Shown piece after piece: positions 1 to 56,913 of a stretch of 64,000 bases of DNA. Each line of letters begins with the position of its first letter. Within the stretch, counting starts at the first letter, position 1. Both the position numbers and the translations under genes were made by a program. Origin of the DNA: Gemmatimonadota bacterium (GTDB taxonomy: Bacteria; Gemmatimonadota; Gemmatimonadetes; Gemmatimonadales; Gemmatimonadaceae). Location of the stretch: assembly GCA_003134685.1 (NCBI GenBank), contig PLCA01000012.1, positions 1,211 to 65,210 of the forward strand, in the 5' to 3' direction. The notes below the pieces were generated by a model. That model saw nothing but the letters and a program-made list of their open reading frames with translations. It was not told the DNA's origin and searched no databases.

Positions 1-57
1 TGGGAGAGCGCCTGGTTTGCAACTAGGAGGTCGCAGGTTCGAGCCCTGTACGCTCCA
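1..57 (+). tRNA. tRNA-Ala(TGC), 5' end outside the window
   Basis: The D-arm end, anticodon arm, variable loop, T-arm and acceptor 3' strand are visible. The anticodon loop TTTGCAA gives anticodon TGC (Ala). The T-stem GCAGG/CCTGT pairs, and the acceptor ACGCTCC plus discriminator A ends at 57; CCA is not encoded. The 5' part lies upstream, so an intact gene cannot be told from a 3' fragment. Everything from the anticodon loop onward recurs at 25.24 kb. Confidence 0.85.
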
Positions 58-2791: not shown

Positions 2792-2945
2792 GTTTGGGGC
2801 GGCGGCCACGATTCTCCCTCTACAATCATCTCGCTTGCGCCGCGAAAGCTTCGAGCCGCTGAGACCTGCTCGGCCGATCGAATCCGAGTTGCATCGTTCC
2901 CTCAAGCAGCGCTAAGCTCTTGACCGGTCCAAAAAGGGAGCGCCG

Positions 2946-3554: not shown

Positions 3555-3804
3555 GGCCGTTTTGAAAAGCTCCTCGTTTCTGCTCCTCGCCGCTACACGT
3601 CCACGTTCGCAGGATGTCACCCATTTCAGGCATGCTAGCTCGTCGTCTCTTTGTTTGATTCCCAAGCCCGAGCTCGTGAAGGCTCCCGCTATCCATCAAC
3701 GGCGCTTCTTCAGGGGGAATGGAGATCGAGACCGCCGCTCCTACGGCGCCAAAGGCTCGGACCCGAATACTGGGAATCGAACTCGACGACGTTATCCCGG
3801 GTCT

Positions 3805-4005
3805 CTAGCTTCGACGGGATGAGATTCCAGTGCATCGTCCTGAGGACCCGTTCTTCAGAAACGGATCGAAATAGACAGCTGGAATGTCCTCGTGCGGGTT
3901 CAGGTTGTAGCGAGGCTTCCAGTCGCTCGGGACGAACTTCTTCGTGTAGCCGTAGAGTTTCTCGGTGATCCCGTCGGGATTGATGACCGTCGCGCGTCCG
4001 CACAT
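3805..4005 (-). pseudogene. Truncated SRAP (YedK/HMCES-like) peptidase
   Basis: The first 48 codons are the N-terminus of a SOS-response-associated peptidase, which crosslinks to abasic sites in single-stranded DNA. The invariant Cys2 is in MCGRAT, and PRYNLNPHEDIPAV is the conserved strand that follows. Full-length members are about 200-230 aa; here homology ends near residue 48 and the frame stops at 66. The break lies close to a cargo-block boundary, so this is a relic, not a working gene. Confidence 0.75.
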
Positions 4006-4180
4006 AAGCGAACGCTAGGCACCAGGACAAAAAATCGCCAGAGTCCTGCGATTCCACGTGCATCCGCGCTATCGTGCATCTTGACGTGGTCCCTAAGAGC
4101 GGCGACGATACGCCGTCTCAGACCTGGAGAGGGAGGTTGTCGGCCATGACGGGCACCGCGCAAATCCGGGCAGACCGCAC

Positions 4181-5575
4181 ATGAATACTTCCCTCGCTCA
4201 AGCGGCCAGCGGCCCGACGACGCCGCACCGGGGAACCCAGCCGCAGATGAACGGTCACTTGCTCCTGTGGGCGATCACTTCAGCGCTCGCCGGATTTCTT
4301 TTTGGCTTCGATACCGTGGTCATCTCTGGCGCCGAGCAGACGATTCAGGGGCTGTGGGGCCTGAGCGCCGGGGTGCACGGGATCGCGATGGCCGCGGCGC
4401 TGTACGGCACCGTGGTGGGGTCGTTGACCGGTGGGTGGCCGGCGGATCGGTTCGGCCGCAAGCCCACATTGCTGTGGATCGGTGTGCTCTACATCGGCTC
4501 CGCGGTGGGCTCCGCTTTGGCATCGAATGTCGAAGCATTCATCGCGGCGCGCTTCATCGGCGGCATCGGCATCGGCGTCTCCACAGTGGTCGCTCCGCTC
4601 TACATCGCGGAGATCGCACCGCCGGCGCACCGCGGGCGACTGGCGGGGATGTTCCAGTTCAACATCGTATTCGGCATCGTCATCGCGTTTCTCTCGAACG
4701 CGCTGCTCGCCGGCATTGGCGCCAACGCATGGCGCTGGATGCTCGGCGTCGCGGCGTTCCCGTCGATCGTTTATACATTGATGTGTCTCGCCATTCCGGA
4801 GAGTCCGCGATGGCTGCTCACCAGAAAAGGCGACCGCGAAAACGGACTGCGAGTGCTCCGCCTCATCGAGCCCGCCGCATCGCCAGCGGAGATAGAGGCG
4901 GAAGCGGATGCTATTGTTGCGGCCTCCACGCGACAGACGAGCGCGAGAGGGTTCTGGTCAATGCGTCTGCGTGTGCCGATCATGCTCGCGTTTCTCGTCG
5001 CGTTCTTCAACCAGCTCTCCGGCATCAACGCGATTCTCTACTTCGCGCCGCGGATTTTCGAGATGACAGGGCTCGGCGCCAAGGCCGCGCTGCTGCAGTC
5101 CGTGGGCATCGGCATCACGAATCTCGTGTTCACGTTCGTCGGCCTCTGGCTGATCGACCGCCTTGGCCGCCGCACGCTGCTCACGATCGGCTCCTTCGGC
5201 TACATCGCATCCCTCGGCCTCTGCGCGTGGGCGTTTTTTACCCGGCACTACTCAATCGTGCCAGCGACCATTTTCGCATTCATCGCGGCGCACGCGGTCG
5301 GCCAGGGCACGGTGATCTGGGTACTGATCTCCGAGATTTTCCCCAATCAATATCGCGCGACCGGCCAGTCGCTGGGCAGCGCCACACATTGGATCTTCGC
5401 CGCGCTTCTCACCTCGTTTTTCCCTGCCATGGTGACCGCATTCGCGCCCGGCTACATCTTCCTCTTCTTCTGCGGGATGATGGTGCTCCAACTCATCTGG
5501 GTGAGAACGATGGTACCGGAGACCAAGGGCGTGCCGCTCGAGGAGATCCAGAGACAACTCGGCGTCGAGATATGA
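4181..5575 (+). CDS. MFS sugar porter (sugar:H+ symporter family)
   Basis: A 464-aa, 12-helix inner-membrane transporter of the major facilitator sugar-porter family. Signatures: GGWPADRFGRKP (loop 2-3), PESPRWLL before the central loop, DRLGRRTLL (loop 8-9) and PETKGVPLEEI at the C-terminus. The ATG at 4181 is the longest start; ATG 4247 is possible. It is the first gene of a three-gene operon, and its stop overlaps the kinase start by ATGA. With a fructokinase-like enzyme and a GH32 enzyme downstream, fructose or a short fructan is the likely substrate (inference). Confidence 0.93.
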   Translation: MNTSLAQAASGPTTPHRGTQPQMNGHLLLWAITSALAGFLFGFDTVVISGAEQTIQGLWGLSAGVHGIAMAAALYGTVVGSLTGGWPADRFGRKPTLLWIGVLYIGSAVGSALASNVEAFIAARFIGGIGIGVSTVVAPLYIAEIAPPAHRGRLAGMFQFNIVFGIVIAFLSNALLAGIGANAWRWMLGVAAFPSIVYTLMCLAIPESPRWLLTRKGDRENGLRVLRLIEPAASPAEIEAEADAIVAASTRQTSARGFWSMRLRVPIMLAFLVAFFNQLSGINAILYFAPRIFEMTGLGAKAALLQSVGIGITNLVFTFVGLWLIDRLGRRTLLTIGSFGYIASLGLCAWAFFTRHYSIVPATIFAFIAAHAVGQGTVIWVLISEIFPNQYRATGQSLGSATHWIFAALLTSFFPAMVTAFAPGYIFLFFCGMMVLQLIWVRTMVPETKGVPLEEIQRQLGVEI

Positions 5576-15539: not shown

Positions 15540-15672
15540 GCTGTCGATTCAGCTGTCGATTGACACCGACATTATCCGGCATCCCGAAGGTCCAACTACG
15601 GCAGATCACGCTGTCCGTCAACGATTTACAGATTTCTTGCCGGACTTCTTACTCCCCTGCGGTCGCCTGATA
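15540..15672 (+). repeat. Repeat family B, copy 1
   Basis: Paired direct repeats CTGTCGATTCAGCTGTCGAT, then ATTATCCGGCAT, GCAGATCACGCTGTCC and TTGCCGGACTTCTTACTCCC lead directly into the tRNA-Ile tail. The same block, inverted, occurs at 25659-25800, 27287-27432 and 32674-32815. It looks like the element-side arm that abuts a duplicated tRNA 3' end (attR type). The 240 bp upstream, after the DUF488 start, hold nothing else I recognise. Confidence 0.8.
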
Positions 15673-18442: not shown

Positions 18443-18521
18443 TCCCAGCGTGGATGGGGAACAAAAGTCCCCCCTAAACTTCTTACACGTACTTTCGCGT
18501 AAGCGCCGAACTACTGTCTCC

Positions 18522-18600
18522 TGGGCTTGGAGCAAGAGCCACCGGTAAAGGCTTTCTACCTCACGCCAATAAGACCTCACGCTCGATGAGCGTGGAGTTC
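18522..18600 (-). repeat. Double-hairpin element H2 (degenerate)
   Basis: CTCCTGGGCTTGGAGCAAGAG is followed by CCTCACGCTCGATGAGCGTGG. It shares the block GGCTTTCTACCTCA with the copy at 45330-45401. Confidence 0.5.
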
Positions 18601-18671
18601 GGCGCTGTCGAGCGGCTTCGGCCAAAGAGGATGACGGTCGCCGCTATAACGCTTTCGCTGGTGCCAATCCT

Positions 18672-25104: not shown

Positions 25105-25240
25105 CAATTCGGGGGTCTGTTTCGGGGTCTGTTTCTCCGGCGAAAGTACGACATCCACTAAGTGAGTGACCGGCTCCGACGCTCGGTTCCCCTCTAAAGT
25201 CCGGCAAATTGATGTAATTGGTTTGTGCTATGTTTTGATT
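25105..25240 (+). repeat. Repeat family A, copy 3 (runs into the tRNA-Ala tail)
   Basis: It is nearly identical to 10067-10215: CAATTCGGGGGTCTGTTTCG, GTGAGTGACCGGCTCCGACG, TCTAAAGTCCGGCAAATTGA and GTGCTATGTTTTGATTTGCAA. Here the tRNA-Ala T-arm and acceptor follow intact, unlike in copy 1. Confidence 0.82.
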
Positions 25241-25280
25241 TGCAACTAGGAGGTCGCAGGTTCGAGCCCTGTACGCTCCA
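25237..25280 (+). other. tRNA-Ala(TGC) 3' fragment
   Basis: TTTGCAACTAGGAGGTCGCA and the T-arm/acceptor are identical to 16-57. The 5' half of the tRNA is replaced by family A sequence. It is the second boundary of the 25.2-kb interval that starts with the tRNA-Ala tail at 1-57. Confidence 0.88.
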
Positions 25281-30624: not shown

Positions 30625-31779
30625 GTGACAGAAGACAAAGAGACGACGACCGCGTCGTCGCGCGCTCGAAACTGGCTACTGTACGCGAGCGCCTGGGTTC
30701 CAGTCGCCGCCGCCTATGCGCAGCTGATCGGTCGCGAGCGCGGCACCTCGGGCTGGAACGCCAAATACTCCGGCGTCGACTACGCGATCATACCCGCTCT
30801 ACTCGGCGTCGCCGTCTGGTGGCTGACGGGACGGGTGCGGTGGCCGGCCAGAAATCCCCTTCTTTTCTTCGCGCTGCACCTTGTTTTCGCTACGATTTAC
30901 AGCGCGGCGTGGCTGGTTCTCGTGTTCGGCTCGATCGCGACGGGAGCTGGCTGGAGCGGCGCTGTGGCGACCACGCGGACGTTCGCCGGCTGGCAGATGG
31001 TTACCGGTTTCTGGACGTACGGGGTAATTGCCGGCATCGCTTACGCAATTCGCATCACGAAGAGCCTGAGAGAGAAGGAAGCAGCGAGGGCTCGCGCTGA
31101 AGCCGCTCGCGTCACTGCGGAGTTGAGTGCACTTCGTGGTCAGCTGAATCCTCACTTCCTTTTCAATACGCTTCACACCGTCATCGCTCTCGTCAGGCGC
31201 GATCCACACAAGGCTGAAGCAGCGCTGGAGCAGTTTGGCGAGATGCTTCGCTACGTTCTCGAACTCAATCGGACGAAGCAGGAGGATGTGCAGCTCGCCG
31301 ATGAAATCGAGTTCGTCAGGAATTTTCTGGCGCTCGAGCAATTGCGACTTACGGATCGCCTCCGCGTCGTCGAGAAAATCAGTCCGGACACCCTCGACTG
31401 CGTCATCCCTTCCCTGACGCTGCAGCCGCTGGTCGAGAACGCGGTGAAGTACGCCATCGCCCCGCGTGTCGAGGGAGGTCGGATCACGATTTCCTCCTGG
31501 CTCGAGGGCTCTTCGCTGGTGCTCGAGGTTGCGGACGATGGTCCGGGGTTCAGTGAGAGTGCCGCGAGCGGAACCGGGGTCGGCTTGCGCGCCGTCAGGC
31601 AGCGGCTCGAGACGCGCCATTCTGGGGAGAGCACTTTCGAGATCAAGTCGGCTCGCGGCGCCGGCTTCACCGTGCGGCTGTCGCTGCCGGCCCGCTCCGG
31701 GGCCGCAGTCCCATCCTTGAGATCGCTCCGACCGCCGGCTGCGCGCCCTGCCGGCTCTCTGGAGAGCGCCGTCGGATGA
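30625..31779 (+). CDS. LytS/YehU-type membrane sensor histidine kinase
   Basis: A 384-aa kinase starting at GTG 30625. About four predicted TM helices occupy residues 15-145, followed by a coiled coil and the His_kinase domain LRGQLNPHFLFNTLHTVIAL (phospho-His near 176), TLQPLVENAVKYAI (N box) and ADDGPGFSES with GVGLRAVRQRLE. Its last four bases overlap the LytTR regulator (ATGA), making a cognate pair. Confidence 0.93.
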   Translation: MTEDKETTTASSRARNWLLYASAWVPVAAAYAQLIGRERGTSGWNAKYSGVDYAIIPALLGVAVWWLTGRVRWPARNPLLFFALHLVFATIYSAAWLVLVFGSIATGAGWSGAVATTRTFAGWQMVTGFWTYGVIAGIAYAIRITKSLREKEAARARAEAARVTAELSALRGQLNPHFLFNTLHTVIALVRRDPHKAEAALEQFGEMLRYVLELNRTKQEDVQLADEIEFVRNFLALEQLRLTDRLRVVEKISPDTLDCVIPSLTLQPLVENAVKYAIAPRVEGGRITISSWLEGSSLVLEVADDGPGFSESAASGTGVGLRAVRQRLETRHSGESTFEIKSARGAGFTVRLSLPARSGAAVPSLRSLRPPAARPAGSLESAVG

Positions 31780-32516
31780 AGACCCGTGCGTTGATCGTCG
31801 AGGACGAGCGGATTTCGCGCGAGAGGCTGAGCGAGCTTCTGGAGCACGTGGAGTGGATCGAGTGCGTTGGCGAGGCGGCAGACGGAATTTCCGCGGTCCG
31901 CATGATTGACGAAATGCAGCCCGACCTGGTTTTCCTCGACATCGAAATGCCCGGGATGACGGGTATCGAGGTTCTGAGTCGAATCACGCACGATCCCGCG
32001 ATCGTTTTCACGACGGCGTACGATCGCTACGCCGTCACGGCGTTCGAGCTCGAGGCGCTCGACTATCTGCTCAAGCCTTTCGGATCAAAGCGACTTGCGG
32101 CGACGCTGGAGCGCGTGAAAAAGAGCCTGGACGGAGGAGGAGAGGTCTCGGTGGCCGAGCGCGCACGCGCGGCTCTCGGAGGTCGGGAGCCCTTCTCGCG
32201 CATTTTCGTGCGGGACCGGGGTCGGATCATCCCGATCGCCGTCGATGGCATCGACCGACTCGAAGCGGAAGACGACTACGTCGGAGTTCACAGTGGGGGG
32301 AAGCGGTATCTCGTCTATCTCACCATGAGCGAATTCGAAGCGCGACTCGATCCTCAGCGCTTCGTGAGGATTCATCGATCCCACATCGTGAATCTCGACA
32401 AGGTTGCGGCCTTCCTGCCCGAAGACGGTGGCCGGTTGTCGATCGAAATGAAGGATGGAACGAAGCTGAGTGCGAGCCGGACCCGGGCTAGGGAGTTGAG
32501 GCATTTAGCGATCTAG
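31776..32516 (+). CDS. LytTR-family response regulator
   Basis: A 246-aa regulator. The REC domain (1-120) has acidic pocket VEDERI, phospho-acceptor Asp in LVFLDIEMPGMTG and Lys in YLLKPFG. The LytTR DNA-binding domain (140-246) has IDRLEAEDDYVGVHSGGKRY and FVRIHRSHIVNLDKVA. It is translationally coupled to the LytS-type kinase. Direct repeats of about 12 bp near the TonB gene would be expected as target sites, but I cannot point to a convincing pair. Confidence 0.95.
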   Translation: MKTRALIVEDERISRERLSELLEHVEWIECVGEAADGISAVRMIDEMQPDLVFLDIEMPGMTGIEVLSRITHDPAIVFTTAYDRYAVTAFELEALDYLLKPFGSKRLAATLERVKKSLDGGGEVSVAERARAALGGREPFSRIFVRDRGRIIPIAVDGIDRLEAEDDYVGVHSGGKRYLVYLTMSEFEARLDPQRFVRIHRSHIVNLDKVAAFLPEDGGRLSIEMKDGTKLSASRTRARELRHLAI

Positions 32517-34757: not shown

Positions 34758-36344
34758 ATGCCTAACGTCCGTATTATCGCGCTATCACTGATAGTTTCAT
34801 TGGCCTCGTTACCGCTTCTCGCCCAATCAGGATCCGACGAAGACCTGCTCGCACGCATTCGCAAGGAAGAAGCGAACAACTCGCAACTTATGAAGACTGA
34901 GCATGTGCTCACGGATATTTACGGTCCACGCTTGACTGGTTCACCGAATTACAAACGCGCCGCCGACTGGGCCGTCAAACAAATGACAGAATGGGGGCTT
35001 CAGAGTGCGCATCTCGAGTCGTGGAACTTTGGTCATCCGGGTTGGCTTAATGAAAGACTGACTGCGCACATCGTTTCGCCGGTGAAAGAGGTGCTGACCT
35101 GTAAAGTGGTCGCGTGGACACCGGGCACGAAGGGAGTCGTGCGCGCGCGAGTCTATCAATTGATTTTGCCGGAGCAGGCAACACAAGAGCAGTTGACGTC
35201 ATTTTTCGCGACGGAAAAAACAAAAGTACGCGGACGTATCGTTATGGCCGGCAAGCACATCGTTGTGCCAATAACTTTGGATCCGCCGCCGAAACGCATG
35301 ACTGACGAACAAGCCGAGCAGCGCTATGGCCCAAACGCGCCCCCACTAACACCCCCGGCCCCGTCTTCGACTCCTGACCCCCCTGGGCCCGTCCTGCTGA
35401 CTAACCGGCAGATCGACGAACAGCTCGATACGTTTCTAAAGGAAAGTGGCGCGGTGGTTCGCGTGAACGATTCAGGGCGAGAGTTTCGTCAAATTCGAGC
35501 GATGAGTAATCGTACGTTTGACGTGAACAGGGCTCTTCCGGCAGTCGTGATAAGCAATGAAGACTATGGTCGCATCACGCGCATCTTCGCCGATAGCATC
35601 GACGTAACGCTCGAATTCAATATCGTCAATCGCATCTATCCCGAAGGCAAGACCTCATACAACGTAGTCGCTGAGATTCCCGGCACCGATAAGGCGGACG
35701 AGATAATCATGCTGGGTGCGCATTTGGATTCGTGGCATGTCGCAACCGGCGCAACCGATAATGCGATCGCGTGCGCGATCATGATGGAAGCAGGGCGCAT
35801 ACTGAAAACTCTGGGCGTAAAACCACGGCGGACAATTCGTATCGCGCTCTGGGGTGGAGAAGAACAAGGACTACTCGGATCCCAGGCTTATGTTCAAACG
35901 CACTTCGGATCTTTTGAGAATCCGAAACCTGAATATGAAAAGTTTGGTGGCTACTTCAATATCGACAATGGCACCGGGCGGCTTAGGGGCGCAGTTATTT
36001 TCGGCCCTCCGGAAGCGGCCGCCATCATGCGGCAGATACTGGCGCCCTTCAAGGACGATGGAGTTGCGGGTGTGAGGGCTGCGAGCATCCGGGGTCTCGG
36101 CGGCACTGACTACTCGTCTTTCATTTACGTCGGCTTGCCAGCCATTGGGTTAAACCAAGACCCGATCGAATATCAGTCCAATACCTGGCACACGAACCTC
36201 GATACTTACGAGCGCATTCTGGAAGATGATGTAAGAAAAGACGCGTTCGAAGTTGCGTGGTCGGTCTATCGACTAGCGATGCGCGATACGCTGCTGCCTC
36301 GCTTCACACAACAAACGATGCCAAAGATATATCAACCTAACTAA
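34758..36344 (+). CDS. Secreted M28-family zinc peptidase with PA insert
   Basis: A 528-aa protein with a signal peptide ending LPLLAQ. The C-terminal M28 domain has [20 protein letters not shown] (Zn His/Asp), [16 protein letters not shown] (catalytic Glu-Glu), YFNIDNGTG and [12 protein letters not shown] (Zn His). The 150-380 region before it resembles a protease-associated domain with a Pro-rich loop. Likely aminopeptidase or carboxypeptidase working with the upstream M1 enzyme in extracellular protein use. Confidence 0.93.
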
Positions 36345-36660: not shown

Positions 36661-36772
36661 TTCTCCTGGCCGTGCACCCACGCATCGCCTACGTGACGGA
36701 CATTCAGCAGGCTCCGACAAACCGACTACACGACCGGAGTTGAAATGCGAGACGTGCTGCATTCTTGCTCGA

Positions 36773-36851
36773 CCTCACGCCTATCGGGCGTGAGGTGCGC
36801 CCTTGGCAGCAAAACTCTCTGCGAAGGGTCGCTCCTGCTCCAAGAGCAGGA
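36773..36851 (-). repeat. Double-hairpin element H3
   Basis: CCTCACGCCTATCGGGCGTG and GCTCCTGCTCCAAGAGCAGG are separated by CCTTGGCAGCAAAACTCTCT and GCGAAGGGTC. The reverse complement matches 41539-41616 closely, spacer included. Confidence 0.75.
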
Positions 36852-37021
36852 ACATACATAAACGAACTACGACATTCTGCCGGTGTTCATAGGGGAATCG
36901 GGCGTCGGTGCCGGAATTCTCCGACATTCCTGCCGTACTTTGCAGGGAGAAACGGGTAAAGAAACGGGTAATCGCTACAGACCGAAGTTGGGTCGGTACA
37001 TCTGCCTTTCGCGAGCGGTGA
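36833..37021 (+). repeat. Repeat module P, copy 2
   Basis: It matches 25467-25657: GAGCAGGAACATACAT, GACATTCTGCCGGTGTTCAT, the paired GAAACGGGTAAAGAAACGGG and CATCTGCCTTTCGCGAGCGG. Here it follows the double-hairpin element; in the other copy it follows the tRNA-Ala repeat. Confidence 0.8.
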
Positions 37022-37078: not shown

Positions 37079-37915
37079 TCACTCGACAGTAAGAATCGTT
37101 ACTCGCGGCACATTGCCTTGTCCCTCGTGCATGCTTCGGCGATACCACCACCAAAAAGCGAATGTGGCTGAAAGCATCACCACGGCGTAACCGCTCATCG
37201 CCACAAGTTGGACGCGTTCTTGGAATCCGTCTGCTACGACCGACTTCCAAAGACCACTTGAGCTTTTGCCACCGCGCATCCAGTCACCGAAGTTCCAGGC
37301 GGCGTGCAGACCTATTGGCACTGCCAGACCTTTCGTCGCAATCGAGGCCATACCAAAGAGAAGTGATCCAATACTTGCTCCGAAGAGCGCTTCTACCCAT
37401 GTCGAGCCTCCGGCCATGTGTTCAATCGCAAAGACAAACGCGACGATAAGCAATGAAACCAAGAGGCCACGGAGGTGTTCCAACCGACGCAACGGATATC
37501 CGTGAAAGGCCAATTCTTCCCTGCATGACAGTAGCAAATAAGTAGCAAGAGCAGTCGCCGCCTCGAAAAAACTGACCCCCGGAGCGCGGACCCATCGCAC
37601 GTGGCCCTCAAACGCAACGATTGAGGTGTGAAGCGCAACCAGGAGCAATCCGAGAAGAATGCCCACGGCAAAACGCCGCAGGCTCTGTCTACCGAGTGAG
37701 GCCCCCACATCTTTGAGACAGATTCCTTCCCAGCGCACGAAGAGCACAGTCAGAGCGAATGTTCCGAGGCTTGCGACTGTCCCTATAGAGAATGCGGGCG
37801 CTAATACAGGAATTCTGCGCGTCAGGGACGCGGTCGTGGCCAACAAGACGGCGCAGCTGGCGAAGAAGAGTAAGACCCGACCGAACGCTGGCCAGCGACG
37901 CGACTCATTTTCCAT
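37079..37915 (-). CDS. CPBP-family intramembrane glutamic endopeptidase (first)
   Basis: A 278-aa membrane protein with about eight TM helices. Motifs in order: SCREELAFHGYPLRRLE (motif 1, EE, near residue 132), FVFAIEHMAGGSTW (motif 2, His, near 162) and VPIGLHAAWNFGDWM (motif 3, near 197). The family includes CAAX proteases and bacteriocin self-immunity proteins. No Ras-like or bacteriocin gene is nearby; its target is unknown. Confidence 0.88.
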   Translation of the reverse strand: MENESRRWPAFGRVLLFFASCAVLLATTASLTRRIPVLAPAFSIGTVASLGTFALTVLFVRWEGICLKDVGASLGRQSLRRFAVGILLGLLLVALHTSIVAFEGHVRWVRAPGVSFFEAATALATYLLLSCREELAFHGYPLRRLEHLRGLLVSLLIVAFVFAIEHMAGGSTWVEALFGASIGSLLFGMASIATKGLAVPIGLHAAWNFGDWMRGGKSSSGLWKSVVADGFQERVQLVAMSGYAVVMLSATFAFWWWYRRSMHEGQGNVPRVTILTVE

Positions 37916-38035: not shown

Positions 38036-38083
38036 TCGGGACGGCGGGATTTGAGCCCGCGACCCCCTGAACCCCATTCAACA
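38036..38083 (-). other. tRNA-Pro(GGG) 3' fragment
   Basis: Minus strand: TTGAATGGGGTTCAGGGGGT (anticodon arm, GGG), then CGCGGGCTCAAATCCCGC (T-arm, perfect stem) and CGTCCCGA (acceptor). The 5' half is missing. The sequence between it and 38340 is AT-richer and holds nothing I recognise. Confidence 0.75.
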
Positions 38084-40335: not shown

Positions 40336-40989
40336 TCAGCCCCGAAACCGACGAGCCGCGCGCAGGCCGAGAGTCAGCAGGACGTAGAGGACCGTCGTCG
40401 CCGCGAGAGCGAGCGGTACGACCCAGAAGCCGAGCGCCTCTCGCGCGCCGGTCGTATCGGCAAGGATTCCGAAGGTGCGTGTCCCATTCGGGTACACGAA
40501 GTAGCCAACATGGCTCGGGACGAATGCTTTCATCAGCGCCATCGCCGCGAACACGATGATCAGCACGTACCCCACCGCGAACGCGACGCTAACGATTCCT
40601 GCCTTGAGTCCGCCAAACACGTTGTGATACAGACCTTCCGCCAACAGGCGCGGGTGGAAAGTGCTGGCACCCTGCTCCAGGAGGTGGTCGGCGAGGATCG
40701 GACGCAGAAAGTCACGCGGGCGGCCCAGGCGGGCGATGGCGGCCTTGACGCGCGCCAATTCATCTGCGTCATCCTGGTCGCCGGCGGCCGCGAAGCTCTC
40801 CGCGAGGTGACTTCGGAGCTCCAGCACGAGCTCTCGACGCTCAGTTTCCGGAAGTCGGCGAGCCACTCTCGACGCGTTATCGAGATAGTCGTTCCACAGG
40901 CGTAATGCGTCCGCATCTCGCGGGACACCGGATGGACCGCCTTGGTCAACGTTTCCTTCAGTCGAACCAGTCAGGGGTCGATGGATCAC
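40336..40989 (-). CDS. HAAS-domain membrane protein, partner of PadR
   Basis: A 217-aa protein. The N-terminal HAAS-type helical domain (LWNDYLDNASRVARRLPETE, LVLELRSHLAESF, IARLGRPRDFLRP) is followed by three to four hydrophobic helices. I chose GTG 40989 because GTGA overlaps the PadR stop, indicating translational coupling. HAAS/DUF1700 proteins accompany PadR-type regulators and act as membrane-bound signalling partners. Confidence 0.8.
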   Translation of the reverse strand: MIHRPLTGSTEGNVDQGGPSGVPRDADALRLWNDYLDNASRVARRLPETERRELVLELRSHLAESFAAAGDQDDADELARVKAAIARLGRPRDFLRPILADHLLEQGASTFHPRLLAEGLYHNVFGGLKAGIVSVAFAVGYVLIIVFAAMALMKAFVPSHVGYFVYPNGTRTFGILADTTGAREALGFWVVPLALAATTVLYVLLTLGLRAARRFRG

Positions 40990-41378
40990 TTGGCGCTCCC
41001 ACGGATTGTGGGTTCTTGGCGAGTGGCACGCGGGTCGCCCATGAGGCGCTGGACGGCGTAGGTAAGCCGGATCCATGACGTCTTCATCGCGGCGAGCGCA
41101 TCCCGTCCGCGCTCACTCAGGCGATAATACTTTCGCGGCACGCCGCCGGGCACTTCTACCCAGCGCGCGGTGAGCAGTCCATCTTTGTGCAGCCGGCTGA
41201 GCAGCGGATAGATCGTCCCCTCGGTGAGCTCGAACTCCATGGCCCCCGTGACGACGGTGATGAGCTCGTAGCCATAGCGCTCGTGCTTGCGCAGCGAGAG
41301 CAGGATGATGAGCTCGAGCACGCCCTTTCGGACCTGCACTTCCCACTTTTCAGTCGTGGCTTCGAGGCGCGGAGGCAC
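40986..41378 (-). CDS. PadR-family transcriptional regulator
   Basis: A 130-aa PadR regulator. The winged helix shows VRKGVLELIILLSLRKHERY, GYELITVV, LTEGTIYPLLSRLHKDGLL and RKYYRLSERGRDAL. It lies directly downstream of a perfect palindrome (41423-41461), which is very likely its own operator (autorepression). HAAS and DUF4097-like genes follow in the same direction. Confidence 0.95.
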   Translation of the reverse strand: MPPRLEATTEKWEVQVRKGVLELIILLSLRKHERYGYELITVVTGAMEFELTEGTIYPLLSRLHKDGLLTARWVEVPGGVPRKYYRLSERGRDALAAMKTSWIRLTYAVQRLMGDPRATRQEPTIRGSAK

Positions 41379-41422: not shown

Positions 41423-41461
41423 TATAGCATAGTACCTTGCATAGCAAGGTACTATGCTATA
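41423..41461. promoter_or_regulatory. Perfect 39-bp palindromic operator upstream of padR-like gene
   Basis: Arms TATAGCATAGTACCTTGC and GCAAGGTACTATGCTATA (18 bp each, no mismatch) are separated by ATA. It contains TATA-rich ends that could be the -10 region for leftward transcription. Position and symmetry make it the likely PadR binding site. As RNA it could form a long stem, but no T-run follows. Confidence 0.85.
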
Positions 41462-41538: not shown

Positions 41539-41616
41539 CCTGCTCTTGGATCAGGAGCGGCCCTTCGCAGAGAGCTTTGCTGCCCAACGGGCACCTCACG
41601 CCCGATGAGCGTGAGG
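41539..41616 (+). repeat. Double-hairpin element H4
   Basis: CCTGCTCTTGGATCAGGAGC, a spacer with CCTTCGCAGAGAGCTTTGCT, then CCTCACGCCCGATGAGCGTG. It is the inverted near-copy of 36773-36851. Confidence 0.75.
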
Positions 41617-41689
41617 TCACGCGCAAAGAGCATAGAGAATCGGCGAGACGACTAGGAGCTGCATCGGCTGACGCAAGCGGTAGCAGCGA

Positions 41690-42235
41690 TCACGGCGTGA
41701 TCGGCGGCGCGTCGAGATCGCACAGATCCTGCGATTCGACCACCGGTTCCTTCTCGTGCTTCGCGGGCACCCCTGAGCTCCAATGCCGTTCGGGAATACA
41801 CGCGGTGAGTACCAGCAGCACCCCGCCGAGGCCAACCACGAACAGTCCAGGCCCCGGTCGCAGCACCAGCATCGTGCTCTCACCACGAGTGTGGGCAAGC
41901 TCCCAAACGCCGATCAGCAACCAGCCGGCGACGCAGGTGATTACAACCCCCAGTGCCGCCGTCACGCGCCGCAGTAGTGTGGGAGGACCGAGCCGAATAC
42001 CGCGGCCGAGCATGACGCCAAGCGCGACGCACACGGCGCCGGCCGACAGCAGCAGGCGCCCGTTCAAGCCGATCACACCGCGCAAAGGGACCAGCCCGGC
42101 GAAATAGTACATCCAGGGCAGGCACGCTCCGATGCCGATCCCGAGTCCACTAAGCACGATCAGGAAGGCCGGCGTCGACCGTCGTCTCGATGCGCGCGGA
42201 CGTGATTCGTTCACGACAACATCGTTCGCCGCCAC
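41690..42235 (-). CDS. Four-helix hypothetical membrane protein
   Basis: A 181-aa protein with a basic N-terminus (RPRASRRRSTP) and four hydrophobic helices: FLIVLSGLGIGIGACLPWMY, LLLSAGAVCVALGVMLG, VTAALGVVITCVAGWLLIG and GLFVVGLGGVLLVLTACI. The last 30 residues are hydrophilic. No family recognised; the spacing suggests an inner-membrane protein. It lies upstream of a lipoprotein gene's end in the same direction, 32 bp away, so they may be cotranscribed. Confidence 0.6.
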   Translation of the reverse strand: MAANDVVVNESRPRASRRRSTPAFLIVLSGLGIGIGACLPWMYYFAGLVPLRGVIGLNGRLLLSAGAVCVALGVMLGRGIRLGPPTLLRRVTAALGVVITCVAGWLLIGVWELAHTRGESTMLVLRPGPGLFVVGLGGVLLVLTACIPERHWSSGVPAKHEKEPVVESQDLCDLDAPPITP

Positions 42236-42267
42236 GGATTCACCGCGCGCCGCGGAACTCGATACCC

Positions 42268-42879
42268 TCAGCGGACCCTGAAGAACAAGAAGATATTCGT
42301 AGAGATATCAGCGGTGATATGGGTCTCGGTCGGATCCTGGAACTGGAGCAGACGCACCTCCGCCAGATTCTTCGTGCCGACGATGAGGTCCCACGTGTTG
42401 CTGTCCTTGACGCCGATGACTTCGACCGTCCACGGACCATCACTGTGGCTGTCGAGGTCGATGATGATGTGGCTGTGGGCCGGGAGCGGCGAGCTCGCCG
42501 TCCCGGCACCAAAGACCCGGGTCATGTCGAGCGTCGAAGGGTGCGCTACACAGTTGCCGACGGTCGGACAGTGCAGCGTGCTCGCGGCGGGCGTGAACCC
42601 AAGCGGCACCATCACGTAGAGCACGGGGATGGACGTGCCATTCGTCGGCGACGCTTGCGCATCGGCGCCCATCTCACAGCCGGAGGGGGACCCAGCGCTC
42701 GGGGGCATCTTGCACTCGAACTGCTTGGTGTAGTCGAGCTGGACCTCATCGCCCTCGAACCACGAAACGGTACTACCGAGCACCGTCACAGGCGGCGGCG
42801 CGGTCGTATCGGTGCTGCCACAACCGATGATTCCAACCACAGCGATGGCGAGCGAGGGAACTAACGACCATTGACGCAT
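42268..42879 (-). CDS. Hypothetical lipoprotein
   Basis: A 203-aa protein from ATG 42879: MRQWSLVPSLAIAVVG with lipobox IIGC (17-20). The mature chain holds several Cys residues (FECKMPPSAGSPSGCEMG, LHCPTVGNCVAH), a segment SHIIIDLDSHSDGPWTVEVI and ends in FLFFRVR. No known domain. It is probably the first gene of a two-gene leftward unit with the four-helix membrane protein. Confidence 0.6.
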   Translation of the reverse strand: MRQWSLVPSLAIAVVGIIGCGSTDTTAPPPVTVLGSTVSWFEGDEVQLDYTKQFECKMPPSAGSPSGCEMGADAQASPTNGTSIPVLYVMVPLGFTPAASTLHCPTVGNCVAHPSTLDMTRVFGAGTASSPLPAHSHIIIDLDSHSDGPWTVEVIGVKDSNTWDLIVGTKNLAEVRLLQFQDPTETHITADISTNIFLFFRVR

Positions 42880-43065
42880 TGTGTACCTCGCGGGCAGAAA
42901 GATGGTTTCAACGGCGAATTGTGTGCGCGACCACAGCGGTTGAGCGGGTCGTTCGGTGAGAGTATCGAAAAACCGGGTGGGCAACCTGATTTGTCCAGCG
43001 ATCGGGCATAGACTCCAGAATCGGCTCGCCGGCGTGGTTCCGCATGGGAAACTGCGCCTGCGTGT

Positions 43066-43114
43066 CTCCTGCTCTCGGAGCAGGAGGTCCCCGGTTCAAA
43101 TCCGGGCGCCCCGA
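43066..43114 (+). other. tRNA-Pro(CGG) 3' fragment
   Basis: CTCGGAGCAGGAGGTCCCCG continuing to a perfect T-arm (CCCGG-TTCAAAT-CCGGG) and CGCCCCGA matches the tail of a bacterial tRNA-Pro. The 5' half is absent. A terminator and an integrase C-terminal stub follow in the order expected of an attL end. Confidence 0.75.
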
Positions 43115-43129
43115 CTGAGTTAAATCTCG

Positions 43130-43163
43130 CCCCGACAGTGATTTATGCTGTCGGGGTTTTTCT
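43130..43163 (+). terminator. tRNA-Pro(CGG) terminator
   Basis: CCCCGACAG and CTGTCGGGG form a perfect 9-bp stem around TGATTTATG-like loop bases, followed by TTTTTC. A clear Rho-independent terminator 15 bases past the tRNA tail. Confidence 0.85.
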
Positions 43164-43220
43164 TTCTGTGAGAGAGTGCGTCTCTTTCTGTGTCTCTAGG
43201 CGTACCGGGCCGTCGCTGGA

Positions 43221-43403
43221 TCAGCCATTCGGCACTCGCTCGCTGATCTTTTTCGGGTGCGACATCACCAGGAGCATCGTGTCGTCGTCGGCCTGCTGGT
43301 AGCAGTTGACCAGCGTCTGGATATCCTTCCACCCGCCGACGGCGGCGACATCCTTGATCGGTAAGTCCTTTCTCGCGGTGGCCCACCCGCGCCGATAGGC
43401 ATG
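43221..43403 (-). pseudogene. Tyrosine recombinase (integrase) C-terminal stub 1
   Basis: A 60-codon remnant: HAYRRGWATARKDLP carries the HxxR box, DVAAVGGWKD the following helix, and LVNCYQQADDDTML the nucleophile Tyr. The tail ends at TGA 43221, facing the tRNA-Pro(CGG) tail. Everything before the His is missing because the next tRNA-Pro(GGG) fragment begins there. The catalytic R and first half of the enzyme are absent, so it is inactive. Confidence 0.88.
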
Positions 43404-43408
43404 CCAGA

Positions 43409-43439
43409 GCGGTCGCGGGTTCAAATCCCGCCGTCCCGA
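43409..43439 (+). other. tRNA-Pro(GGG) T-arm/acceptor fragment
   Basis: GCGGTCGCGGGTTCAAATCC and CGCCGTCCCGA form the T-arm and acceptor 3' strand, same as the minus-strand copy at 38036. It abuts integrase stub 1 and is followed by its own terminator and stub 2. Confidence 0.75.
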
Positions 43440-43450
43440 TTCTGTAAGAG

Positions 43451-43489
43451 AAAGCACTGTCGGCATTTACGCTGATGGTGCTTTTTTTT
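43451..43489 (+). terminator. tRNA-Pro(GGG) terminator
   Basis: AAAGCAC and GTGCTTT pair around a long loop, followed by a run of nine T's. It lies 12 bases past the tRNA fragment. Confidence 0.75.
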
Positions 43490-43500
43490 TGCTACCGATC

Positions 43501-43524
43501 TGGCAGAGTTTCGGCAGAGTTTCT
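43501..43524 (+). repeat. Arm-type direct repeat pair
   Basis: TGGCAGAGTTTCGGCAGAGTTT contains two GGCAGAGTTT units at 11-12 bp spacing, placed between the tRNA terminator and integrase stub 2, like the pairs at 77, 10071, 17330, 24951 and 49141. Confidence 0.6.
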
Positions 43525-43535
43525 CCGTGCCTTTG

Positions 43536-43690
43536 CTAGGCCACGCCTTTCTCTCGCAGCTTCAGCGTAACGCTGGTGACTGCCAGTACCGACTCTTCAT
43601 CCGACTGCTGATAAACTTCCAGCAGCGTGCTCACGTCCATCCATCCACCAGCAGCTGCTACGTCCTCTGCTGCAACGTTTGTTAGATGGC
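43536..43690 (-). pseudogene. Tyrosine recombinase C-terminal stub 2
   Basis: The frame reads EDVAAAGGWMDVSTLLEVYQ, with the nucleophile Tyr in VYQQ, and ends LKLREKGVA before TAG 43536. It is homologous to stub 1 but clearly different, so it comes from another element. The HxxR box is lost; upstream sequence switches to an attC-like half site next to the VOC gene. Confidence 0.82.
43659..43687 (-). other. attC-like left half site at the end of the VOC gene
   Basis: Minus strand ATCTAACAAACGTTGCAGC followed by AGAGGAC resembles an integron attC left half (R'' RYYYAAC, AA, CGTTGCAGC, GGAC). It lies 48 bases past the VOC stop. The right half is replaced by integrase stub sequence. Confidence 0.45.
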
Positions 43691-43734
43691 AGGTCGCTGA
43701 CGCTTGAATCTGATCGTCAGTTAAGCAGCCGCGA

Positions 43735-44100
43735 TCAGTTCGCCCTCTGATGGCCGAATGTTATCCAGAAGCGATTGAGGTCGCGGATGATGAACTCTCT
43801 CATACCATAAAAAGTGTCATGAGGGGGCTTCACCACCTCCACGCGATCCTTGAGTCCTTGATAGATCTCGTCGACGTTGTCGACGTCGAGATACAGATCA
43901 ACCTCGCGACGCTTCTGGGGGCTGCTTTGCCCGCCGGAGTTGAACATGACTTGTCCACCGCCGAAGGATAGAATCGCGAAGCTAAAGCCGCTGCCGCCAT
44001 CGTCGTATGTGTCGGTCACCGTGAAGCCGATCTGAGCGTACCACTCAACGGTCGCGCGAACGTCGGGCACGTGGATCATAGGTGTTACGCTCTTCGCCAT
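43735..44100 (-). CDS. VOC-family (glyoxalase/bleomycin-resistance fold) protein
   Basis: A 121-aa protein: MIHVPDVRATVEWYAQIGFT at the start, SFGGGQVMFNSGG in the middle and MREFIIRDLNRFWITFGHQ at the end form the paired beta-alpha-beta modules of vicinal-oxygen-chelate proteins. VOC proteins act as dioxygenases, isomerases, or drug-binding resistance proteins; metal ligands are only partly evident (His9, Glu). GGGGAA lies before the ATG. The gene is bracketed by inverted GTTAGATGGC sequences, as in an integron cassette. Confidence 0.88.
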   Translation of the reverse strand: MAKSVTPMIHVPDVRATVEWYAQIGFTVTDTYDDGGSGFSFAILSFGGGQVMFNSGGQSSPQKRREVDLYLDVDNVDEIYQGLKDRVEVVKPPHDTFYGMREFIIRDLNRFWITFGHQRAN

Positions 44101-44163
44101 GATGTTTTCCCCGCGAATGACTCGGGCGCCTCTCGCTGTCCGCCGATTCGGACGCCTGGTGCC

Positions 44164-44175
44164 ATCTAACGCCAA
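44164..44175 (-). other. attC-like right half (R') upstream of the VOC gene
   Basis: Minus strand TTGGCGTTAGATGGC: GTTAGAT fits the R' consensus GTTRRRY, and its complement GCCATCTAAC ends the cassette on the other side. A TATAAT lies just before it on the same strand. The remaining 220 bp up to the epimerase gene hold nothing else I can support. Confidence 0.45.
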
Positions 44176-44397
44176 TTATACCGCAAAAGAGTCTTGACTC
44201 CTGTAAGGCACACAGCGTATCCCCGCCCAGATGCTTTGCCGGGCGATTGAGCTAACCTCATCCCACTCCTGCTGAAACGCTGTACATAGATAAGCGTTGG
44301 AAGTGCGCGAAAGGCTGCAAGGAATGCATGTATGGCGCTGCGGGGATTTATCACTGCGTCGGCGGAGTTCACTACGCAATACTGATACTTTTGGTGA

Positions 44398-45288
44398 ATG
44401 CGGATTCTCATCATTGGCGGCACGCGGTTCATCGGCCCGCGCGTCTCGGCACGTCTCGCGGCGAAGGGACACTTGGTGACAGTCGCTCACCGTGGAGTCC
44501 ACAATGCAACTCTGCATCCTGACGTAGTTGTGGTGCGGAACCCTGACCTAGGCCTTCCGATACGACGAATCCCGGACGAGCTCCGCCGGCTCGAGCCAGA
44601 GGTCGTGATTCACATGATCGCAATGGGGGAAGAAGATTCTGAAAGCGCGGTCCAGGCTTTTAGCGGCGTGTCGCGCCGCTTGATAGCACTAAGCAGCGGC
44701 GACGTGTATAAGGCATACGGAATCTTCATGGGTATCGATTCGGGGCCGATCGTTGCAACTCCTCTAGTCGAGGGCGCGACAATCAGAACCATACAATACC
44801 CATACAGACGCGCGGAGACCCCGCCGGAGTCCCTTGAGTTTTGGTACGATAAGGTTCTCGCCGAGCAGGCTCTGCGATCGGATCCTCGTTTGCCGGCAAC
44901 GATTCTTCGCTTACCGAAAGTCTACGGGCCAGAGGACAACGGCGACCTCCGCACTGTATATGCTTTTCGTCACGCACCGACTTGGCGCTGGACCCACGGC
45001 CATGTCGAAAACGTCGCGAAAGCGATCGTGCTGACAGTTACAGACGATCGAGCTACCGGCCAAACTTACAACGTCGGGGAAGAGCATGCGCCGACGATGG
45101 CGGAACGTCTCCTAACATTGCCTGAACGCCCGGATGTGGGACCGGAGACGGGACCGTATCGTTTCGAGCAGAACATGAATTACGACACGTCAAAAATCCG
45201 CGAGCACCTCGGCTACGTCGAAGACATCGACGAGACAATCGCAATGCGTTCGGTAGCAATACTGTCGTCAAACCGCAAGAAGGAGTGA
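44398..45288 (+). CDS. NAD-dependent epimerase/dehydratase-like (extended SDR) protein
   Basis: A 296-aa Rossmann protein. MRILIIGGTRFIGPRVSARL is the N-terminal NAD(P) site, SSGDVYKAY the Ser region, and FWYDKVLAEQALR contains the YxxxK catalytic pair (near residue 150). RLPKVYGPEDNG and TYNVGEEHAPTMAERL follow. It resembles atypical SDRs and isoflavone-reductase-like epimerases; the substrate is unknown. It lies between attachment relics, with a double-hairpin element 40 bases after the stop. Confidence 0.87.
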   Translation: MRILIIGGTRFIGPRVSARLAAKGHLVTVAHRGVHNATLHPDVVVVRNPDLGLPIRRIPDELRRLEPEVVIHMIAMGEEDSESAVQAFSGVSRRLIALSSGDVYKAYGIFMGIDSGPIVATPLVEGATIRTIQYPYRRAETPPESLEFWYDKVLAEQALRSDPRLPATILRLPKVYGPEDNGDLRTVYAFRHAPTWRWTHGHVENVAKAIVLTVTDDRATGQTYNVGEEHAPTMAERLLTLPERPDVGPETGPYRFEQNMNYDTSKIREHLGYVEDIDETIAMRSVAILSSNRKKE

Positions 45289-45329
45289 ATGCGTGGTAGT
45301 GGCAGGGCCCTCACGGTGTCATTCCGCCT

Positions 45330-45401
45330 GCTCTCGGAGCAGGAGCGAGCGGTCAAGACTTTCTACCTCAACATTAACGTCACGCTCGATGAGCGTGAGG
45401 T
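45330..45401 (+). repeat. Double-hairpin element H5
   Basis: CCTGCTCTCGGAGCAGGAGC, spacer with GACTTTCTACCTCA, then TCACGCTCGATGAGCGTGAG. The rest of the 290-bp gap between the epimerase and the aspartic protease shows no convincing gene. Confidence 0.65.
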
Positions 45402-45580
45402 TGGGGAAAATGCCGATTCGCTCTATTCGAAACGGACACAGCAGCACATCCGGGGTGACGAAAGCCTGCGCCTCTAAAGACGCTGGACGTCCAATCTGCA
45501 GTCCCATGCGATTCGCCAGCAGGGCGCGCACAGCCGCGCGGGCCATTGGTTGCCTGACGTCCAAACTGCCGCAACTCAAT

Positions 45581-47956: not shown

Positions 47957-48931
47957 ATGAGCGCCAACGACTCTGTACCTACAAAAATACCCCGCCGAAG
48001 GGTGCTCCTTGAACTGGCCGTCGTTGCGTTTGCTGTGACCAGCGGGTGCGCGACCCCTCGCACGCACCCAGAAGTACGCGGTTTGTGGGATGCCCATTCA
48101 CATTTGTCTTGGTATGGCGACCAAGCACTAGATAGCTTGCTCAAATACGGAGTGGTTGGTGTGCGAGACGTGGGCGGCGATGCCATCCAACTGAGGACGT
48201 GGCGCGATCAGATCGCGCGCGGCGAGCGTAAGGGCCCTCGCATCTTCTTCGCGGGTCCCGTCATCGACGGTCCGAAGAAGAACCCACGTTTCCGCGCCAT
48301 CGTTCAGACGCCTGCGGAGGGTCGCCGTGCGGTGGATTCGCTCGCCGATTTGGGAGTCGACTTCATCAAGACCCATAATGGTCTGACACCAGAGGTATAC
48401 TTTGCCGTGATTCGGGAGGCGCACGCGCGCCACCTGAAGGTTGCGTCGCATCTCCCGAAAGGTATTCCGGCGTGGGTTGCGGTTGACTCTGGTGTCGAGA
48501 GCATTGAGCACGCCGGCGAGTCGATGCTCGCAAGCCCGATATACGCCGGGTATGCGAAAGACGTCGAGGAGGCCAAGGTATGGTGGTCGTCCCCAGCAGG
48601 CGACAGCATGATTGCTCGCCTTGCACGTCAACACATGGTATTTGTGCCGACGCTGGTAGCGTATCGTGCCGTCGCATTGTCTGAGCCAGTCGGACCCTCG
48701 CGCGATGCTTGGCTGAGCACGTTCCGTTTCTTGGTGGAGCTCACAGGACGGATGTACCGGGCAGGCATTGTAATTCTCGCTGGTACTGATTACTCCACTC
48801 CTAGCTTTGCGGTCGTCCCCGGTCAGTCAGTGCTCGAGGAGATAGAGCTGCTTGAATCGGCGGGCTTGTCGCACAATGCGGCCATGGATGCAGCATCCGT
48901 CAACATCGTTCGTTGGCTTGAAAAGCGTTGA
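47957..48931 (+). CDS. Amidohydrolase-superfamily lipoprotein, probably truncated at the C-terminus
   Basis: A 324-aa metal-dependent hydrolase. An N-terminal basic region (IPRRRVLLELAVVAF) and lipobox TSGC suggest a lipoprotein. GLWDAHSHLSW (HxH), GVDFIKTHNG (Lys), HLKVASHLP (His), SIEHAGES (His) and LAGTDYSTP (Asp) are the five conserved metal/active-site segments in order. The usual final strand block (LGxIxxGKxADLxVLD) is missing: the frame ends at WLEKR two bases before family-A sequence. Activity uncertain. Confidence 0.85.
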   Translation: MSANDSVPTKIPRRRVLLELAVVAFAVTSGCATPRTHPEVRGLWDAHSHLSWYGDQALDSLLKYGVVGVRDVGGDAIQLRTWRDQIARGERKGPRIFFAGPVIDGPKKNPRFRAIVQTPAEGRRAVDSLADLGVDFIKTHNGLTPEVYFAVIREAHARHLKVASHLPKGIPAWVAVDSGVESIEHAGESMLASPIYAGYAKDVEEAKVWWSSPAGDSMIARLARQHMVFVPTLVAYRAVALSEPVGPSRDAWLSTFRFLVELTGRMYRAGIVILAGTDYSTPSFAVVPGQSVLEEIELLESAGLSHNAAMDAASVNIVRWLEKR

Positions 48932-48936
48932 GTTGC

Positions 48937-49265
48937 CCGCCTCTAAAGTCCGACGGTTTGTCGTGATTGGTCGAGTAATTCGCTGCGTCGGGAGCAGGTG
49001 TCAGTTCTGGTGTCAGTCGGATACGGACATCCGGAGACAGCAGCTAAGGTTGCACAGAACATTTTGCGATCCGTCAGAGTGAAATGCGGACATCTTGTCC
49101 TACCATAGCTTCTAGTTTCCATGCCTGACAAGCGTGAGGTCGGGGGTCAGTTTGGGGGTTAGTTTCTCCCGGCAAACCCCGATATTGATGTCGGAAAGAA
49201 TCGGCACCGACGCTCGATTCCCCTATGAAGTCCGGCAGATTGTCGTGATTGGTTAAGTAATTGCC
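48937..49265 (+). repeat. Repeat family A, copies 4 (partial) and 5
   Basis: Copy 4 is CCTCTAAAGTCCGACGG at 48941, followed by the pair GGTGTCAGTTCTGGTGTCAG. Copy 5 (49128-49265) has the tRNA-Ile-like core ACAAGCGTGAGGTCGG, the pair GGTCAGTTTGGGGGTTAGTT, CACCGACGCTCGATTCCCC and AAGTCCGGCAGATTGTCG, and runs into the tRNA-Ala tail. Confidence 0.78.
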
Positions 49266-49311
49266 CTGCTTTGCAACCAGGAGGTCGCAGGTTCGATCCC
49301 TGTACGCTCCA
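49265..49311 (+). other. tRNA-Ala(TGC) 3' fragment
   Basis: CTGCTTTGCAACCAGGAGGT through GCAGG-TTCGATC-CCTGT (T-arm) to ACGCTCCA. It differs from the copies at 1 and 25.2 kb in the anticodon stem and T-loop. To its right the DNA is coherent exopolysaccharide-locus sequence, so this may be the outer boundary of the mosaic. Confidence 0.85.
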
Positions 49312-50320: not shown

Positions 50321-50333
50321 CGAGGCTCCTCTT

Positions 50334-50425
50334 CGGTAGCTCGACTGGCATGGCGCCTGATCAGCGCTTTAGCCTCGTAGCTTTGCGTCGCCACCTTTCG
50401 GTGGGTTTGCCGGTTTTCGGAGGTG
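50334..50425 (-). promoter_or_regulatory. c-di-GMP-I (GEMM) riboswitch upstream of regulator A
   Basis: On the minus strand: CCGGCAAACCCACCGAAAGG, TGGCGACGCAAAGCTACGAG, GCTAAAGC, a variable hairpin, then GCCAGTCGAGCTACCG. This matches the GEMM aptamer in order: GGCAAACC, GAAA tetraloop, GACGCAAAGC, the second stem and the receptor/closing strand. The aptamer ends directly before AAGAGGAGCC and the ATG, so ligand binding could alter ribosome access. Confidence 0.9.
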
Positions 50426-56785: not shown

Positions 56786-56913
56786 GAGTAACTACGCTGC
56801 TCAGAGCAAAGCCGTCGAGAGGCGGTGACGCAGAGCCACGGGGCTAGAGCGGGTCTTCCGCGAAGCCAGCCGAGCCGCCAGTGAATCCGACAATCGGTCG
56901 GTGCCGCGGCGGC
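56786..56913 (+). promoter_or_regulatory. c-di-GMP-I (GEMM) riboswitch with Rho-independent terminator
   Basis: GAGCAAAGCCGTCGAGAGGC, GGTGACGCAGAGCCACGGGG, CTAGAGCGGG, a variable stem and AAGCCAGCCGAGCCGCC match the GEMM order, with GAGA as the tetraloop. Its last bases GCCGCC (56875-56880) can pair instead with GGCGGC at 56908, which is followed by TTTTTT, giving a mutually exclusive terminator. That arrangement predicts read-through when the ligand is bound (ON switch; inference). Confidence 0.87.

Follow-up and report, generated by a model that had tools for sequence, protein, structure and literature searches.

Integrase stubs behind tRNA-Pro tails as probable remnants of two stacked integrative elements in a Gemmatimonadota genome

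The sequence analyzed here, which we call the window, is a 64,000-nt stretch of a Gemmatimonadota bacterium (C15:1211-65210, in a 3.63-Mb draft genome of 16 contigs). Between positions 43060 and 43700, the window presents in order a tRNA-Pro tail (tail 1), a hairpin with a T-run, the end of an integrase gene (stub 1), a tRNA-Pro(GGG) tail (tail 2), another hairpin with a T-run, arm repeats, and a second integrase end (stub 2). The features of this locus are the following, where G002 and G005 are genomes of relatives, and C10 and C12 are other contigs of the same genome.

43068..43086, plus strand: recombination core CCTGC-TCTCGGA-GCAGG followed by AG, which corresponds to the tRNA-Pro anticodon stem-loop
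43068..43115, plus strand: tail 1, displaced 3′ tail of tRNA-Pro(UGG) type, tRNA positions 28-75, 46/48 identical to the tRNA-Pro(UGG) at C12:273759
43129..43157, plus strand: terminator-like hairpin and T-run 3′ of tail 1, fold of -20.5 kcal/mol
43221..~43405, minus strand: integrase stub 1, the final ~61 codons (LWHAYRR through the stop), with the HxxR box (HAYRR) and the tyrosine (NCYQQ) kept
43405..43411, no strand: putative deletion junction, where integrase 1 (LWH codons) is joined to position 46 of tRNA-Pro(GGG), tail 2 having no anticodon arm
43411..43439, plus strand: tail 2, displaced 3′ tail of tRNA-Pro(GGG), positions 46-74, 29/29 identical to C10:17976
43454..43485, plus strand: terminator-like hairpin and T-run 3′ of tail 2, fold of -24.9 kcal/mol, conserved in G002 and G005
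43502..43523, plus strand: two direct arm-type repeats, GGCAGAGTTTC twice (P′ arm), conserved in G002, G005 and C10
43536..~43666, minus strand: integrase stub 2, last ~45 codons, with the tyrosine (EVYQQ) kept, DNA identity of 91%/88% to G002/G005

This order of tails, terminators, arm repeats and stubs had been described in an initial annotation of the window, and it is borne out by tRNA comparison, folds and translations. The same annotation assigned tail 1 to tRNA-Pro(CGG), which has to be corrected: when compared with the tRNA genes called by ARAGORN from fetched stretches, tail 1 is 95.8% identical to tRNA-Pro(UGG) versus 85% to CGG. The seven bases TCTCGGA in the place of the anticodon loop mismatch both genes. 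The assignment of tail 2 to tRNA-Pro(GGG) stands, as it is identical to the genome's own gene (E-value 1.7e-7 in 73 kb). Tail 2 begins at tRNA position 46, and thus the whole anticodon arm is missing from it. Both enzymes had been described as cut to 55-60 codons, which is close to the ~61 codons that we measure for stub 1 and wrong for stub 2, with its ~45. Nor is stub 1 cut exactly at the HxxR box; the cut is two codons before it and the box is intact. The residues themselves, HxxR and tyrosine in stub 1 and tyrosine in stub 2, are as described.

The core at 43068 is one of ten copies in the genome at two mismatches or fewer, and in other genomes this same position comes directly after the P-arm (see below). 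Neither a P-arm nor the 5′ half of a tRNA lies on its left, and its overlap TCTCGGA fits no tRNA. ARAGORN calls no tRNA gene in the window, because the tails lack their 5′ halves, and the one tRNA-Ala gene is cut by the window start and by an N gap. To the left of the core, two genes at 41733-43029 (a membrane protein and a lipoprotein-like protein) are 91% identical to G005:C58, a match that stops 39 nt before the core.

Are the stubs integrase ends? In a search with a profile of their own tyrosine-recombinase family, stub 1 has an E-value of 4e-28 and stub 2 of 5e-13. With generic Pfam models, which are weak on such short pieces, stub 1 matches PF00589 with an E-value of 0.0019, below the model cut-off, and stub 2 matches nothing. 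The best matches of stub 1 in relatives have 64-71% identity. The final family profile, of 422 positions, was rebuilt without an ORF of L086 that we rejected as an integrase; it is an amidohydrolase-like gene, and its matches, including window 48083-48787, were discarded.

The region 43411-43666 (tail 2, terminator, arm repeats and integrase 3′ end) matches as one block in two relatives, at 91% in G002:C184 (257 nt, from tail 2 through integrase 2, E-value 1e-98) and at 88% in G005:C210. The G005 block lies directly behind an intact tRNA-Pro(GGG) at 31740-31813; a P-arm follows 4.2 kb on (36023-36103) and then a displaced Pro(GGG) tail (36139-36184), for an element of ~4.4 kb in all, whose own integrase has an open frame of only 200 aa. 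In G002, the block lies behind a displaced tail and the integrase gene runs off the contig end. From these positions of the homologous block, we infer that each stub marks the attL side of an integrative element that has decayed. Both stubs are C-termini of one tyrosine-recombinase family, with the DNA comparison as the decisive evidence, and a chance origin of the tail 2 and stub matches is excluded.

The family has many full-length members. In many genomes, relatives with a complete gene stand behind intact tRNAs for Pro, Ala, Arg, Gln and Ile, and most of the integrases examined are convergent with, and about 60-200 bp from, a tRNA-Pro (UGG, CGG, GGG), Ala(UGC), Arg(UCG), Gln(CUG), Ile(GAU) or Ser(GGA). 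In the same genome as the window, a full-length integrase of 419 aa (C12:273929-275185), which scores above the PF00589 cut-off, lies 97 bp behind the intact tRNA-Pro(UGG) at C12:273759 and is convergent with it. A search of public genomes with the C-terminal profile gives 35 loci, nearly all titled Gemmatimonadetes, Gemmatimonadaceae or Gemmatimonadales; an earlier scan of public genome contigs with the C12 integrase gave no match. A displaced tRNA fragment opposite a restored tRNA is present in G005 and in C12 and C10; the restored tRNA is absent from the two window units themselves, and an attL/attR pair is seen in a relative. Full-length relatives next to Pro tRNAs, which the initial annotation suggested looking for, thus exist, and together with the attL/attR pair they support its proposal that the tRNA modules of the window come from tyrosine recombinases, whose attachment regions they are.

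The other end of these elements is marked by the P-arm, the left flank common to the core copies of the genome. Thirteen aligned copies give a model of 117 positions, in which AGTTTC-type repeats occur twice, along with a CCGGCACCGACGCNCGATTCCCCTATGAA block. By this model the genome of the window has 15 copies, G005 and G015 have 7 apiece, and 20 of the 61 genomes have one or more. The 15 conserved P-arms in the genome of the window are to be set against one intact integrase of the family. At the anticodon stem-loop lies an inverted-repeat core with a 7-bp overlap. Directly after the P-arm in other genomes comes the anticodon arm of a Pro, Ala, Arg or Gln tRNA, which suggests that crossover takes place in the anticodon stem-loop. 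The same region is used by classical tyrosine recombinases (PMC8371274).

The two stubs lie in a larger island, of which we list the other relevant features.

1..57, plus strand: 3′ part of the tRNA-Ala(UGC) that anchors the island (the gene starts at -24, with an N gap in the assembly)
25118..25280, plus strand: P-arm, core and displaced tRNA-Ala(UGC) tail (25236-25280, 45 nt, 98%), inner attR of the island
36832..36967, minus strand: P-arm and core TCTTGGA, right end of a one-gene unit, E-value 2.9e-43
38036..38080, minus strand: tRNA-Pro(GGG) tail, 98%, left end of the unit 38080-36832
45327..45345, plus strand: second core, with the overlap TCTCGGA as at 43068 (identical 19-mer), possible right end of the element starting at 43068
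49148..49311, plus strand: P-arm, core and displaced tRNA-Ala(UGC) tail (49265-49311, 47 nt, 94%), outer attR of the ~49-kb island

With its two displaced Ala tails behind P-arms, this is an accretion island of ~49 kb built in two steps, and the stubs lie in its outer part. Also in the island are displaced Ile(GAU) tails at 15659, 17453, 27300 and 32687, and Pro(GGG) tails at 288, 17292 and 38080. The unit 38080-36832 measures 1.25 kb and has a single cargo ORF (37079-37915), for a Rce1-like protease. Elsewhere in the genome, C16:143365-153343 has an intact tRNA-Ile(GAU) and, behind it, stacked displaced Ile tails at 147824, 149067 and 151025, with one to few genes each, and then a P-arm with a Pro-type core. 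A module of ~80 nt between a Pro-type and an Ile-type core occurs at 36770-36850, 41539-41618, 45327-45404 and about 18515-18602, and in the three aligned copies (36850, 41539, 45327) both cores mark the limit of similarity, as would result from recombinational exchange at the cores.

The overlap TCTCGGA is identical at 43068 and 45327, which fits a single element, since the ends of an element have to agree with each other. The interval holds the two integrase stubs, a glyoxalase-like gene and an epimerase-like gene, and lacks genes of its own for recombination or transfer. A P-arm search finds none at the core at 45327, so the right end is incomplete. The joined flanks of 43068 and 45327, as an empty site, were not found in 60 relatives; that search returned the two halves in the genome of the window itself, 91 nt of the left flank in G005, and short matches to the core. 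We think it likely but unproved that 43068-45345 is one element. Insertion at a site other than a tRNA is clearer at C4:78047-79651, which has the core TCTTGGA at both ends, with a tail and a 51-codon stub on the left, and a P-arm on the right.

The glyoxalase-like ORF (43735-44175, minus strand) is flanked by an 11-bp inverted repeat, GTTAGATGGCA/TGCCATCTAAC (43679-44172), which presumably fits the R′/R′′ consensus of integron attC sites, and the break of stub 2 falls within about 14 nt of one copy of the repeat. No integron-type integrase was recognized among the PF00589 hits of the genome, which were typed in part and include two Xer-like ones. We dropped an integron explanation for that reason, and keep the repeat as a remark on this gene. 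Other features of the window are two c-di-GMP-I riboswitches, at 50332-50421 (minus strand, 79 bits) and 56795-56882 (plus strand, 58.7 bits), and a perfect 18-bp inverted repeat with a 3-nt spacer (TATAGCATAGTACCTTGC) at 41423-41461, upstream of a PadR-type regulator gene (40986-41378, minus strand), of which it is possibly the operator.

The locus is best explained if the stubs are remnants of two integrative elements that belonged to a single lambda-like tyrosine-recombinase family of Gemmatimonadota and that lie stacked in the larger accretion island. The proposed intact order is the tRNA anticodon arm (core) with the tail, which the element brings along, a terminator, arm-type repeats, an integrase gene pointing to the tRNA, cargo, the ~117-bp P-arm, and the core again, an order that is found in G005 and elsewhere. 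Judging by what is known of the family and by the anatomy of the sites, a crossover in the 7-bp anticodon loop would restore the tRNA and displace the host tail to the far end. Deletion would have removed the cargo and most of both integrase genes and kept the attachment end, leaving integrase 1 joined to the middle of tail 2, and integrase 2 cut ~45 codons from its end. To this reading, attachment-side remnants of two decayed and stacked tRNA-targeting elements shortened by deletion, we give a probability of roughly 0.88. Tandem stubs in another MAG, L159 (see below), speak for it as well. The retained ends may still serve as substrates for an integrase acting in trans.

That the arm-proximal 3′ end of the integrase is preferentially kept, as the initial annotation had it, is a general trend in the family. 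Of 29 truncated integrases away from contig edges, 26 keep only their last 35-141 codons with respect to the 422-position profile (p about 1e-11 versus uniform breakpoints, only indicative since the copies were assembled by hand, diverged N-termini may have been missed, and some truncations may be shared). Such an excess is what one would observe if the integrase 3′ end were a working part of the attachment site, providing extra arm sites or spacing, so that 35-140 codons are selectively kept. This would be compatible with decay by deletion, and would suit both the ratio of 15 P-arms to one intact integrase and an arrangement found in L159 (JANLGX010000518.1, reversed, 2817-5518), where a tRNA-Pro(UGG), an integrase stub, a tail, an integrase stub, a P-arm, a core and a tail come in a row, the second unit having ~0.47 kb and no cargo. 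On the other hand, the arm repeats sit between the terminator and the integrase stop, such that the stub need not be functional, and C10:30843 has a tail, terminator and arms with almost no integrase. Erosion towards a protected tRNA-side end produces the same skew, and is the interpretation we prefer; a working stub is a tentative idea, with the odds against it.

Somewhat less plausible in our opinion is a phylum-specific, integron-like traffic of small one-gene cassettes, in which a few resident integrases would move many integrase-less units in trans, between tRNA anticodon arms and also between non-tRNA TCTYGGA cores, with the stub kept as part of a working attachment end. Each unit would have a standard P-arm at one end and, at the other, an equally standard set of tail, terminator, arms and, in some units, an integrase stub.

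How the enzyme bodies were lost is a question that the breakpoints address. The initial annotation attributed the loss to repeated integration and excision, that is, crossovers between attachment sites would have excised the enzyme bodies and left the 3′ ends. Cores do seem to be exchange points, as in the module at 36850, 41539 and 45327 bounded by Pro-type and Ile-type cores. But the homology of integrase 1 ends in the LW codons before HxxR, and the next bases are tRNA position 46 onward, outside the anticodon-arm core, where ordinary deletion fits better than integration and excision. No match spanning this junction was found among 60 relatives. The homology of stub 2 to relatives breaks off at ~43667, inside the gene and with no core there. 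As neither break is at a core, plain deletions sparing the attachment end would account for both. Moreover, excision from core to core would take stub and tail away together, and the truncation points of the 29 copies are scattered over 35-276 codons from the integrase end. We consider excision an improbable origin of the stubs, and retain deletion.

An assembly artefact joining unrelated contigs is a concern in a 16-contig draft with an N gap inside the tRNA-Ala at the window start, but it is very improbable here, given that there is no gap at 43060-43700, that the junction is well inside the contig, and that tandem stubs recur in the independent assemblies L159 and L187. Archaeal SSV-type integrases are 'suicidal', their gene being split by its own integration, and we reject this type, despite its similar-looking C-terminal fragments beside tRNA tails, because here the full-length genes are intact while integrated beside intact tRNAs and the core lies ~100-200 bp outside the gene, not inside it.

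These results identify the agent behind the tRNA-like repeats of the window, and the 117-bp P-arm with the anticodon-arm core offers a portable signature by which mobile units can be delimited in Gemmatimonadota, a phylum represented mostly by metagenome assemblies in the collections searched. Should units lacking an integrase move in trans, they would constitute a natural single-gene cassette system built on tRNA attachment sites, not on attC.

In the streptococcal ICE/CIME model, elements keep their attachment ends, lose their recombination genes and are stacked by accretion. The window elements are similar in that they keep attachment ends, have no recombination genes and are stacked with others. 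They differ in that several units, 1-2 kb long, have roughly one gene each, and the unit discussed here has an incomplete right end. A cis-mobilizable element keeps both attL and attR; 43068-45345 has an attL-like end and then a core without a P-arm, and other units such as C4:78047-79651 do keep both.

The term cis-mobilizable is also used for Dehalococcoides, where ssrA islands form a tandem array behind a single RNA gene, with copies of that gene's 3′ end between them, and 15 of these islands, without integration modules, are possible cis-mobilizable elements (PMC3146451). Both systems have stacked units bounded by RNA-gene 3′ ends, with integration genes often missing. The Dehalococcoides islands use a serine recombinase and the tmRNA T-loop at one locus, whereas here we find tyrosine recombinases, anticodon arms, several tRNAs, and nested and scattered copies. 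In the additive flexible islands of Methylophilaceae, as given in the available text of that study, inserts of 330 bp-42 kb lie behind 20-mer repeats of the tRNA-Lys 3′ end (PMC10872708), and the inserts behind tRNA 3′ ends are of similarly variable size here; a conserved P-arm and integrase stubs, both present here, are not described in that text. The Islander catalogue, in the portion available, collects tRNA-integrated islands with a tyrosine integrase, a restored tRNA gene and a displaced fragment (PMC4383910), compared to which our copies are decayed and nested. Displaced tRNA fragments resulting from integration are well documented in general (PMC9897764).

Since ssrA islands, tRNA-Lys islands and displaced tRNA fragments have already been described, the mechanism is known, and the window elements belong to a known kind, that of integrase-less, cis-mobilizable elements in accretion islands. 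In the open-licence papers searched we found no description of this Gemmatimonadota family, of its P-arm, or of its high ratio of ends to intact enzymes. This Gemmatimonadota group carries unusually many elements that have no enzyme of their own.
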